This document shows, in pieces, positions 1,926 to 5,943 of a DNA stretch of 10,103 nt. Where the stretch lies: assembly GCA_021852225.1 (NCBI GenBank), contig JAJZOA010000253.1, forward strand, positions 1-10,103, written 5' to 3'. The stretch comes from Planctomycetota bacterium. GTDB taxonomy: Bacteria > Planctomycetota > Phycisphaerae > WQYP01. Under the pieces are notes generated by a model. That model searched no databases. It was not told the DNA's origin and saw nothing but the letters and a program-made list of their open reading frames with translations. The position numbers and the translations under genes are program-made. Numbering within the stretch: the first letter of the stretch is position 1; each line of letters begins with the position of its first letter.

Positions 1926-2204
1926 GCCCAAAGCGTAACGTGGGGAGGGTAAATTTGGCAACCCGCTCACCCAAATCATAACAGCAGGCCTCGGCCCGCA
2001 TGCCGTAGGTTTTGCAAGCGGCGATTAACAAATAATCGACGTCCATCCGGTCCGATCAGCCACCGATCGTGCGGACTATTCATTCAATATGAACAATCCG
2101 CGGTACCTCATAAGACCAATCGCATCATCGGGCGGAATCGCCGGGACGCGTAAAGTGTCCGCACCTTTATCAGGAGAGGTCATAGACCGGCGTGTCGAGC
2201 TTAT

Positions 2205-2222
2205 TTGGCACGGAATTTGCTT
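2205..2222 (+). promoter_or_regulatory. Sigma-54 (RpoN) -24/-12 promoter
   Basis: TTGGCACGGAATTTGCTT matches the sigma-54 consensus (YTGGCACGrNNNTTGCW) at every defined base. The invariant GG (2207-2208) and GC (2219-2220) are separated by exactly ten bases. Transcription should start near 2232 and read the 118-aa membrane protein at 2412. Sigma-54 promoters need an AAA+ activator bound upstream. A weak imperfect inverted repeat, AAAGTG (2152-2157) with CACCTTT (2162-2168), is a possible but unproven activator site. The rest of the gap 1926-2204, up to the divergent nfo gene, holds no convincing ORF, and I could not pin down an nfo promoter there. Confidence 0.8.
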
Positions 2223-2266
2223 CATACCTATTTCGTCAGGCGGGTCTGCCCTGATTATCGGCATCT

Positions 2267-2330
2267 GTGCCTTTGGCACGATTGACTGGGCGACTCGCCA
2301 GAGTTGATTGCGTGATCAACCCGACGGGTT
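2267..2330 (+). other. Cluster of short hairpins in the sigma-54 leader
   Basis: The predicted leader (about 2232-2411) contains three short perfect inverted repeats. They are GTGCC/GGCAC around TTT (2267-2279), TTGAT/ATCAA around a six-base loop (2304-2319), and AACCC/GGGTT around GAC (2318-2330). A weaker GGCG/CGCC lies at 2289-2299. The second and third share bases 2318-2319, so they cannot both form fully. The first hairpin includes a second copy of TTTGGCACG (2272-2280) without a -12 element. No known riboswitch class is recognisable. A regulatory role is speculative. Confidence 0.3.
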
Positions 2331-2411
2331 CGGACATGCTATTGCGAAATTCATGCCAAGTCCGCACCGGCCGACAGCTATCTTCCATGGCCCTTTTTTG
2401 GGTGAGGTGCA

Positions 2412-2768
2412 ATGATGAAATCTCCTATTCCTCTGCGTGCCGATTGGGCGAAATCCTTTCCGCTCCCGAAAAAAGTTCGCTTTCCCAAGCATCCCGCCCT
2501 TTGGAATGAGGCGGGGCCGCGTAAGTTACTCACGTTCATGGGCCGGATTTTAATTGCGTTGCCGGCACTTCTTGGGTTGATGATCATCATGCAGTCATTC
2601 ATGGCGTCGGATAGTCCGCTGCACCATGCGGCTAAACCGGCCAGTTTTATTGGGCCGGCAAATGTCTCTTCCGGCACAATGGATAGCGCCATGCCGTTAA
2701 AAGCCACCGTTGCCGGCGGCACGGCTACGAGCGCAATTTCGGCGAATGTCGGTCAGACTGGTTCGTAA
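2412..2768 (+). CDS. Small single-pass membrane protein of unknown function, sigma-54 controlled
   Basis: I do not recognise this 118-aa protein. A basic, proline-rich N-terminus (residues 1-38, about ten Lys/Arg) precedes one hydrophobic segment at about 39-63. A C-terminal half follows that is almost free of charge and rich in Ala, Gly, Ser and Thr. The positive-inside rule predicts the N-terminus in the cytoplasm and the C-terminal 55 residues outside. The n-region is too long for an ordinary signal peptide, so a membrane anchor is more likely. A GAGGTG ribosome-binding site (2404-2409) lies just before tandem ATGs at 2412 and 2415. The gene stands alone between a sigma-54 promoter and an intrinsic terminator, which supports its reality and implies conditional expression. 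It could be a cell-envelope or regulatory microprotein; nothing in the sequence decides this. Confidence 0.65.
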   Translation: MMKSPIPLRADWAKSFPLPKKVRFPKHPALWNEAGPRKLLTFMGRILIALPALLGLMIIMQSFMASDSPLHHAAKPASFIGPANVSSGTMDSAMPLKATVAGGTATSAISANVGQTGS

Positions 2769-2828
2769 TTCCCGCCCTGGGTTACCAAGTGTTTTGAATA
2801 CGCTGTTAGTCAATTGATTTCCAGAAGA

Positions 2829-2868
2829 AATACCCTGCCCAAACGAAACGGGACAGGGTATTTTTTTT
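2829..2868 (+). terminator. Rho-independent terminator of the sigma-54 unit
   Basis: AATACCCTG (2829-2837) pairs perfectly with CAGGGTATT (2854-2862). The stem continues as CCC/GGG (2838-2840 with 2850-2852) past a single bulged A. The loop is nine bases, and a run of eight T follows (2861-2868). It lies 60 bases after the stop at 2768 and separates that gene from the prepilin-like gene downstream. Confidence 0.92.
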
Positions 2869-3049
2869 GTCTCAAAATTCGATCCATTTCATGGTTGGCG
2901 GCGGATCTGCCCGGTCAGCCAGCCTTTGGGATAAATTCGCGCTCCTGGCGTCTGATAACCCCACCTTGCGTCCTATATCAGGTAAACACGAGCTTCTGTT
3001 ATTCGGTCTTAATTAACTTGCCGATACGCCTATTAGAACCCGGAAACAG

Positions 3050-3066
3050 GCCGCGCATTGCGCGGC
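3050..3066 (+). other. GC-rich hairpin upstream of the prepilin-like gene
   Basis: GCCGCGC and GCGCGGC form a perfect seven-pair stem around ATT, ending 53 bases before the start codon of the gene at 3120. No T-run follows, so it is not a classical terminator. It may shape the mRNA leader. Apart from this, 2869-3119 shows no convincing promoter, RNA gene or ORF. Confidence 0.35.
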
Positions 3067-3119
3067 AACCCGGCAAATTTAGTCGCCGGATTAAAGGGGG
3101 CTATCGCAAGGACCTTCAC

Positions 3120-4022
3120 ATGGAAACACCGGTTTTATGCAATACATCTATGATTTTTACCGTCCCGCTTTCTGACGCGGGAAGGCCAGGTACGTCATCC
3201 GGCCGCAAAGCTTTTACCTTGGTGGAAATGATCGTTGTGATGACAATCATTGCTTTGCTGATATCTTTGCTGCTGCCCGCGTTGGCGGCGGCTCGCGCCA
3301 CAGCGCGTACGGCATTGTGTGGTTCGAACCTTCGCAGTCTTGGTCAGGTTACGCTGGAATATGCAAGCAATTATCAGGGAATGTTGCCATACGGTACGTA
3401 CTCAAACCCCAAGTTTGCGACCAGTGTGTATAACTCCTATTTTGGTGAATGGGCTAATTTGGAATTCTATTTTCTAGTTGGCCCGCCCGTCAGTATTGGC
3501 AATAACGGAATTATTGGAAAAAATATTCCCGCCAATATGGCGGGAAAATGGAGCGATTATTTCTGGTGCCCGGACCGGCAGGTTCCCATGGTGGGAGGCT
3601 GGGGGGTTAACTATGCAGCCAATCCGAACGTATTTCTTACACCGTATACCAATTCGGTTAATTCCCTGGCGGCTAATCAGAGCATGCGTTTAAGCTCCAT
3701 ACCCAATCCCGCAAGCCTCATTTCCATCGGTGATACCAACCAGAGTTGGCCCGGAACTGGCAATTGTGCGGCGTTTCTGTTTTCCTGGTTGCCGGGGCAA
3801 TTAACTTGGCAATATGGTGCTTATACCAACCAAACCGTTATTCCGCCTAATCCTGGTAATAATGATGCAACCACATCCATCGTGAACCATCAGGGATTGC
3901 GCTATCGTCATGATATGAATGAAGCGGGTCAGGGCGTTGCAAATGTCGTTTTCGTGGACGGCCATATTCAAACCATGGCCGAAAATGGCCTGCACGTTTA
4001 CAACGTTCTGCCAATCAATTAG
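3120..4022 (+). CDS. Type IV prepilin-like secreted protein (DUF1559-like, with 'H...DG' C-terminal domain)
   Basis: A 300-aa pseudopilin-type protein of the kind greatly expanded in Planctomycetota. A 31-residue basic leader ends in GRKA (28-31), followed by the prepilin motif FTLVE with Glu36 at +5 and a hydrophobic helix to about residue 57. Prepilin peptidase should cut before Phe32; the residue before the cut is Ala, not the usual Gly. C150 in WCPD (149-152) and the C-terminal VDGH (279-282) match the family. His264 is followed by 15 residues before the DG, where the classic spacing is nine, so there is a small insertion. The start at 3120 is chosen because an AAGGA ribosome-binding site lies at 3108-3112. 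The longer in-frame ORF would start before a terminator. The protein probably forms or decorates envelope fibres or a type II/IV apparatus; its exact role is unknown. Confidence 0.88.
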   Translation: METPVLCNTSMIFTVPLSDAGRPGTSSGRKAFTLVEMIVVMTIIALLISLLLPALAAARATARTALCGSNLRSLGQVTLEYASNYQGMLPYGTYSNPKFATSVYNSYFGEWANLEFYFLVGPPVSIGNNGIIGKNIPANMAGKWSDYFWCPDRQVPMVGGWGVNYAANPNVFLTPYTNSVNSLAANQSMRLSSIPNPASLISIGDTNQSWPGTGNCAAFLFSWLPGQLTWQYGAYTNQTVIPPNPGNNDATTSIVNHQGLRYRHDMNEAGQGVANVVFVDGHIQTMAENGLHVYNVLPIN

Positions 4023-5625: not shown

Positions 5626-5943
5626 TCAGGCTTGGCACTTGCGACGCTTAATCGCCATAACGCCCAGCAAGCCAATTGCAAGGAACGCCAGCGAAGCGGG
5701 TTCGGGAGTCGGTGTGGCCGTCAATGTCGGGTTAAACAGGCTGGATTGTTCAAAGATGCCCGCTGTTGTGGTGGGGGTGGCCTGCAGGTCTTCGCCCAGA
5801 ATAACCGTCAGATCACCGGAAACGGTGGCGCCGGTGGTGTAGTTGACTGTCAGCGGGCGGGCAAAACCGGCCACCAACCTGCCCGTCGGGTCGGAGGCGG
5901 TTTTTGGGGATCGGGAATCAAAACCAGCCAGTAACCCGCCCAC
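5626..5943 (-). pseudogene. Truncated PEP-CTERM protein (C-terminal sorting tail without signal peptide)
   Basis: The 3' end encodes a clear PEP-CTERM sorting signal: a Thr/Pro-rich spacer, PEP at residues 80-82 (EPASL at 81-85), a hydrophobic helix at about 84-97 and a basic end with KRRK (99-102). Such tails are recognised and cut by an exosortase and mark exported, often surface or matrix, proteins. Export needs an N-terminal signal peptide. Here the frame is closed by a TGA at 5967-5965, and the only plausible starts (GTG at 5943 or later) give a protein with none. I therefore read it as the 3' remnant of a larger gene, or a gene broken by a frameshift, left downstream of dinG. The longest reading is 105 aa; surface PEP-CTERM proteins usually have 200 or more. 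The tail is convincing; the pseudogene status is inferred. Confidence 0.65.

Follow-up and report, generated by a model that had tools for sequence, protein, structure and literature searches.

A small membrane-protein gene with a conserved sigma-54-type promoter and its probable tie to nitrogen limitation in planctomycetes

Gene content and architecture of the locus

The window (the whole 10.1-kb stretch of DNA analysed here, probably from a planctomycete lineage within the Phycisphaerae) contains a compact unit made up of a −24/−12 promoter, a leader, one short gene and an intrinsic terminator (Table 1). The promoter had been described in a first-pass annotation of this DNA as matching the consensus perfectly, and a pattern scan of the 10.1 kb agrees: TGGCACGGAATTTGCT is the sole match to TGGCACNNNNNTTGCW without a mismatch. 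The remaining seven matches listed for the window have two mismatches each, and because shuffled versions of the window also give 8 matches with at most two mismatches, the same number as observed, only the perfect site at 2206–2221 stands out. No sigma-70-like sites were found between positions 2000 and 3200. Judged by its sequence and its conservation, the site is almost certainly a genuine sigma-54-type promoter.

The predicted leader, whose 5′ end near 2232 is placed from the −12 element, agrees with the length of about 180 nt given originally. Its length is not conserved, as the promoter site precedes the start codon by 209 nt in the window versus 103–160 nt in 13 relatives. A search of positions 1950–3200 against Rfam returned no match at E 0.1, and the hairpin predicted in the first 59 nt of the window's leader is not significant (z −0.98). 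At the other end of the unit, the terminator had been called strong, and in folding energy none of 200 shuffles was as good as its stem; a simple terminator scanner did not list this stem, the loop of 9 falling outside the scanner's rule. The terminator and a gap of 350 nt before the next likely start, at 3120, are together the grounds for the earlier description of a self-contained one-gene unit. The closest relative, contig L001, has a terminator-like stem that is weaker than that of the window (z −1.98).

The open reading frame spans 2412–2768. The methionine at 2415 is favoured both by where the homologues start and by the distance to GAGGTG, so the protein is likely to be 117 amino acids long and not 118 as first annotated. 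Its description as a single-pass protein stands, with a single hydrophobic stretch at residues 45–63 (Kyte-Doolittle 2.25) and a structure model consisting of one helix from 33 to 66, confident at about 41–60, between disordered ends (mean pLDDT 60.7). Residues 1–40 include 9 K/R versus 2 D/E. According to the positive-inside rule, basic segments face the cytoplasm, and we therefore take the conserved basic segment to be cytoplasmic, which gives a predicted single-pass topology with the basic end inside. The basic character of this half thus holds as annotated; the outer part, which had been called uncharged, is net neutral and contains 2 K and 2 D. The protein has no match in Pfam or NCBIfam and its profile has no match to any PDB chain, and it has conserved homologues, in keeping with the original view of a membrane protein of no described family.

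Table 1. Coordinates of the features discussed, in the window unless a contig is named.
Feature	Position	Strand	Details
−24/−12 (sigma-54-type) promoter, TGGCACGGAATTTGCT	2206..2221	+	0 mismatches
Predicted 5′ leader, about 183 nt	2232..2414	+	5′ end placed by site geometry, from the −12 GC (2219–2220)
Weak NtrC-box-like dyad, TGCCCTGATTATCGGCA	2247..2263	+	inside the leader; weight-matrix score 10.1
117-aa predicted membrane protein with one pass, a basic inner end and a short net-neutral outer part	2415..2768	+	homologues, alignment, helix model
Intrinsic terminator	2828..2870	+	stem 2828–2863, then eight T; −18.1 kcal/mol, z −4.4
DUF1559 pilin-like gene	3120–4022	+	syntenic with L001:6008–7015
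105-aa ORF with a C-terminal PEP-CTERM motif	5626–5943	−	3 kb from the unit
ORF between the sigma-54 site of amtB and amtB (contig L026)	8897–9563	+	same place in L047, L025, L052, L003

Homologues and their distribution

Database searches returned four homologues at first and 24 in all with which an alignment could be made. A database entry among them has the label Phycisphaerae bacterium, and the closest relative (L001, from genome G001) is a contig of the planctomycete MAG ZJ4.bin39. The sequences form three clades: that of the window itself (about 65–72% identity), clade b, with the motif MLxIPFK, and clade c, with MxPLPFK, the latter two being 17–28% identical to the window's protein. Three residues, W11, P16 and K20 (numbered from 2415), are invariant in 23/23 alignment rows and the conserved basic segment reads P-[FL]-[KR]-x-x-W-x-x-x-x-P-x-x-[KR]-K.

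Clear homologues were identified in 10 of 150 related genomes with the first profile and in 13 of 198 with the second. A phylum-wide draw gave at least one positive among 392 genomes, that one being G001, and a class-wide draw at least 16 among 397 (13 clear, two marginal and one dropped), with no more than 11 first-look candidates scored for each genome in either draw, so that some homologues may have been missed. The marginal homologues, G008 and G016, have E values of about 1e-4 and are backed by gene context. The dropped candidate, in G066, consisted of 36 matching positions within a long unrelated ORF. From these draws, the family looks narrow in distribution. No relative of the 117-aa protein was found among viral contigs.

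The gene for a DUF1559 protein follows the small gene in the window as well as in L001, and the small protein could be an accessory of this type IV pilin-like product. We regard this as very improbable: the terminator separates the two genes, no DUF1559 relative occurs in the examined stretches, some of them short, of the other 12 genomes, and DUF1559 proteins are abundant in planctomycetes.

Conservation of the promoter with the gene

The first-pass annotation had raised the question of whether homologues also keep a −24/−12 site. They do: a same-strand site precedes the start in all 13 genomes with a clear homologue, and it is perfect in 11 and has one mismatch in G003 (the last base) and G005. 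The site persists where protein identity drops to about 20%. Even between the window and G001, an ungapped comparison gives 30% identity for the 60 nt preceding the site and 43% for the 60 nt following it, versus 10/10 for the fixed bases of the site.

Perfect matches are scarce in these genomes, as had been stated for sigma-54 promoters in general; there are 94 across the 13 related genomes (about 45 Mb, 2–13 per genome), a rate that corresponds to 2.6e-4 expected per 250 nt and strand. The reversed pattern gives 30, from which roughly a third of the perfect sites may be due to chance. A lone perfect site is thus no proof of a promoter; the weight lies in its recurrence upstream of one and the same gene.

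The gene for sigma-54 itself, rpoN, was found in 11 of the 13 relatives (not in G022, a genome of 1.5 Mb, or G027), and that of G001 has a perfect −24/−12 site of its own. Sigma-54 activator domains were identified with strong scores in all 13, the weak tail of the search also matching genomes without rpoN. A hairpin-like GCAACCGTATGTTGC is common to leaders of clade b (L021, L022, L023 and L027), a short way downstream of the promoter.

PEP-CTERM and exosortase genes

In proteobacteria, a link between sigma-54 and PEP-CTERM proteins has been described (PMC1569441, PMC9850573), and 99 of 167 PEP-CTERM genes are reported there to have in common a site containing a sigma-54 motif (PMC1569441). 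The annotation had drawn on this PrsK/PrsR precedent, according to which the small gene could belong to a PEP-CTERM, exosortase and exopolysaccharide regulon under a PrsR-like activator. Several features resemble such a regulon as those reports describe it: the gene forms a single-gene unit behind a sigma-54 site, 12 of the 13 relatives encode an exosortase, and in L001 two PEP-CTERM-type genes, one identified by Pfam and the other by its C-terminal motif only, lie just upstream of the small gene. The PEP-CTERM tail that had been noted 3 kb away in the window is indeed present; the ORF that carries it is short and possibly a remnant.

On the other side, the small protein has no PEP-CTERM itself and such tails show no enrichment downstream of perfect sites. 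None was found downstream of 90 perfect sites (up to 2 kb examined, median 1.9 kb; at least 1.5 kb for 78 sites and under 0.6 kb for 6), and random positions in the same loci were positive in 22 of 1580 cases, so that only about 1 would be expected among 90 and the zero, although it indicates no enrichment, is weak evidence for absence. The count used a third motif pattern, two earlier ones having been too strict, one of which missed both L001 controls. No protein in the 13 relatives scored above the cut-off for PrsR (TIGR02915), as was also the case for the 14 controls, and the recurrent neighbour of the gene in other clades is amtB. Membership in a PEP-CTERM regulon is accordingly improbable in our view, and the annotated link was not borne out; this is a lack of support and not a disproof.

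Pairing with amtB and P-II genes

The small gene is transcribed divergently from amtB, which encodes an ammonium transporter, in 10 of the 13 genomes (contigs L020–L026, L028, L047 and L048). The transporter domain PF00909 is encoded at the divergent position in all 10, one of the genes being cut by the contig end, and the transporter of L028 scores above the cut-off for the amt subfamily. Each of these amtB genes has its own −24/−12 site facing away from the small gene (3 perfect, 7 with one mismatch), and the two sites of a pair are 344–551 nt apart. Genes for P-II proteins, called by clustering with one member confirmed by Pfam, follow amtB in three genomes (two each in L026 and L047, one in L048). 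The marginal homologues in G008 and G016 are likewise divergent from amtB, with −24/−12-like sequences that have 2 and 1 mismatches, respectively, before the small gene and 1 and 2 before amtB. In all, the pairing spans at least three diverged clades. The genomes counted represent a small number of clades and include near-duplicates (G013/G027), so that counts made over them are not independent.

No amtB was found next to the small gene in the 10.1 kb of the window or in G001, G005 and G019. In G001 and G005 it is located on another contig, with a perfect sigma-54 site about 0.9 kb before its ORF and the dyad described in the next section. In G019 (L027) the small gene and its site are kept, as is the glycosyltransferase gene that is the usual neighbour of amtB in clade b, and the absence of amtB beside them may represent a loss, a move or an assembly gap.

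Two further observations concern amtB itself. In the four genomes of clade c and in G001, an ORF of 190–276 codons lies between the sigma-54 site of amtB and amtB. Its product has a hydrophobic segment and a C-terminal PRLS or PRLC, the L026 copy has no Pfam match, and the operon may here encode a second uncharacterised protein, either exported or in the membrane. The AmtB encoded at L028:8423–9955 and its kin have a long N-terminal signal-like extension rich in Ala and Pro, the transporter domain starting at residue 81 in L028.

An NtrC-box-like dyad at sigma-54 sites

Sigma-54 sites of the relatives are enriched in an upstream 17-bp dyad, TGCNY-N7-RNGCA. We searched for it up to 400 nt upstream of 90 of the 94 perfect sites (near-identical ones were merged), 64 of which are intergenic and 26 inside ORFs according to a crude caller. 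The box occurs upstream of 23 of the 64 intergenic sites versus 2.8 expected from shuffles, with the qualifications that orthologous sites among the positives are not independent and that the pattern was drawn after viewing the alignment of clades b and c, whose regions supply 6 of the 23 (two each in L016 and L017, one each in L044 and L045); 17 positives remain without them. It occurs upstream of 2 of the 26 sites inside ORFs, with 1.0 expected, and these two belong to a porin-like gene and an amtB leader at which the caller had overextended the ORF. Box-bearing sites precede amtB, a second amtB, a citrate synthase gene, an isochorismatase-domain gene, two porin-like genes and the small gene.

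At the small gene, the strict box is present within 400 nt upstream of 4 of 14 promoters (G014, G020, G022 and G023), in each case between the promoters of the small gene and amtB. It is absent from that distance at the other 10, which include those of the window, G001, G005 and seven of eight in clade b. An alignment of the divergent regions shows other conserved blocks for most of clade b, and these are clade-specific. Within the window, TGCCCTGATTATCGGCA has the second-best score in the 10.1 kb, versus 15.2–20.9 for the ten sites from which the matrix was built, and does not fit the strict pattern. An earlier dyad test, with a spacing of 4–8, was positive in 8 of 15 regions and negative in the small-gene regions of the window, G001 and G005; exact dyad counting over the clades gave nothing common to all, and the best match to the enteric NtrC consensus upstream of the 14 small genes has 8 of the 12 specified positions.

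None of the 13 relatives encodes a protein above the NtrC equivalog cut-off (TIGR01818), the best scoring 433.7 of 558.6 bits, and all 13 have NtrC-like response regulators below it; among 14 control genomes one passes. A 2025 survey describes the conservation and functional presence of NtrB/NtrC as limited in Planctomycetota (PMC12316311).

The protein might alternatively be a general small protein of envelope or membrane stress, controlled by sigma-54 and sharing a regulatory region with amtB without acting on AmtB. Sulfotransferase, DUF892 and porin genes also follow perfect sites in the relatives, which indicates that sigma-54 does not serve nitrogen solely in these organisms, and in G001, G005, G019 and the window both gene and promoter are retained without amtB as a neighbour. 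Such a role is nevertheless unlikely in our estimation, although less so than the pilin and PEP-CTERM alternatives, given that the pairing with amtB recurs, in 10 of 13 genomes and in the two with marginal homologues, over no fewer than three diverged clades, and that in four genomes the box lies between both promoters.

Proposed function and relation to known systems

We favour, with reasonable though far from full confidence, the interpretation that the locus responds to nitrogen limitation under sigma-54/Ntr-type control and encodes a single-pass membrane protein that likely serves as an accessory of AmtB and P-II. The small protein would thus probably be a protein of nitrogen starvation rather than a part of surface-protein sorting. 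Membership in a nitrogen regulon seems likely for the family as a whole; we infer it for the copy in the window too, with less assurance. A partnership with AmtB is a more tentative suggestion, which we would rank somewhat below an even chance.

We hypothesize that nitrogen shortage switches on an NtrC-like activator, which together with sigma-54 polymerase would open the −24/−12 promoters of the small gene and amtB, and that AmtB, P-II and the small inner-membrane protein would then be made together. The basic cytoplasmic segment could dock on a partner, for which AmtB or its regulator P-II is the most likely candidate, and docking might tune or stabilise ammonium uptake, with the outer part as a variable tail. 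The boldest form of this model is rather unlikely as a whole: a lineage-specific, membrane-anchored partner of AmtB, switched by sigma-54 along with amtB and P-II, that would gate or couple ammonium uptake in planctomycetes and so fill the role of sP36 with a different protein.

The small protein sP36 of Methanosarcina mazei is archaeal, cytoplasmic and 61 aa long, and is reported to be recruited to the membrane on nitrogen upshift (PMC10714827). As described there, it resembles the protein studied here in being small and tied to nitrogen status and to AmtB and P-II (GlnK1), and it acts at the cytoplasmic membrane. By that description it differs from our protein, which has 117 aa, a predicted transmembrane helix of its own and a sigma-54 promoter. 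Binding of AmtB by the 117-aa protein is a guess by analogy with sP36. Few regulated transport systems are better known than AmtB with P-II. None of the papers surveyed by title and opening lines of the abstract concerns such a planctomycete protein, and on that showing another protein linked to amtB through both gene position and promoter would have no bacterial precedent. The loci also outline a testable sigma-54/NtrC-box nitrogen regulon for Planctomycetota.

The arrangement is similar to the enterobacterial Ntr regulon (glnK-amtB), as presented in PMC8743547, in its RpoN promoters and in its targets, which include amtB and P-II genes. In E. coli, the box bound by NtrC is the 17-bp TGCACCAnnnTGGTGCA (PMC8743547), and the box of the relatives has the same length and the same TGC/GCA ends. 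Unlike in enterobacteria, the dyad has more variable arms (TGCNY/RNGCA), all regulators score below the NtrC equivalog cut-off, and the box also precedes genes for citrate synthase, an isochorismatase-type protein and two porin-like proteins.

To our knowledge, the small protein has no enterobacterial counterpart. Among the additional box-bearing loci, L057, L061, L182 and L187 have an isochorismatase-domain gene (identified by Pfam in L057) behind a sigma-54 site, with the box at −214. In L067, L070, L158 and L198, a citrate synthase gene (L067 by NCBIfam, the others by a similar start) follows a perfect sigma-54 site common to these loci, the NtrC-box-like dyads being placed near −200, −230 or both; as a side remark, such control of citrate synthase would be a form of carbon–nitrogen coupling.
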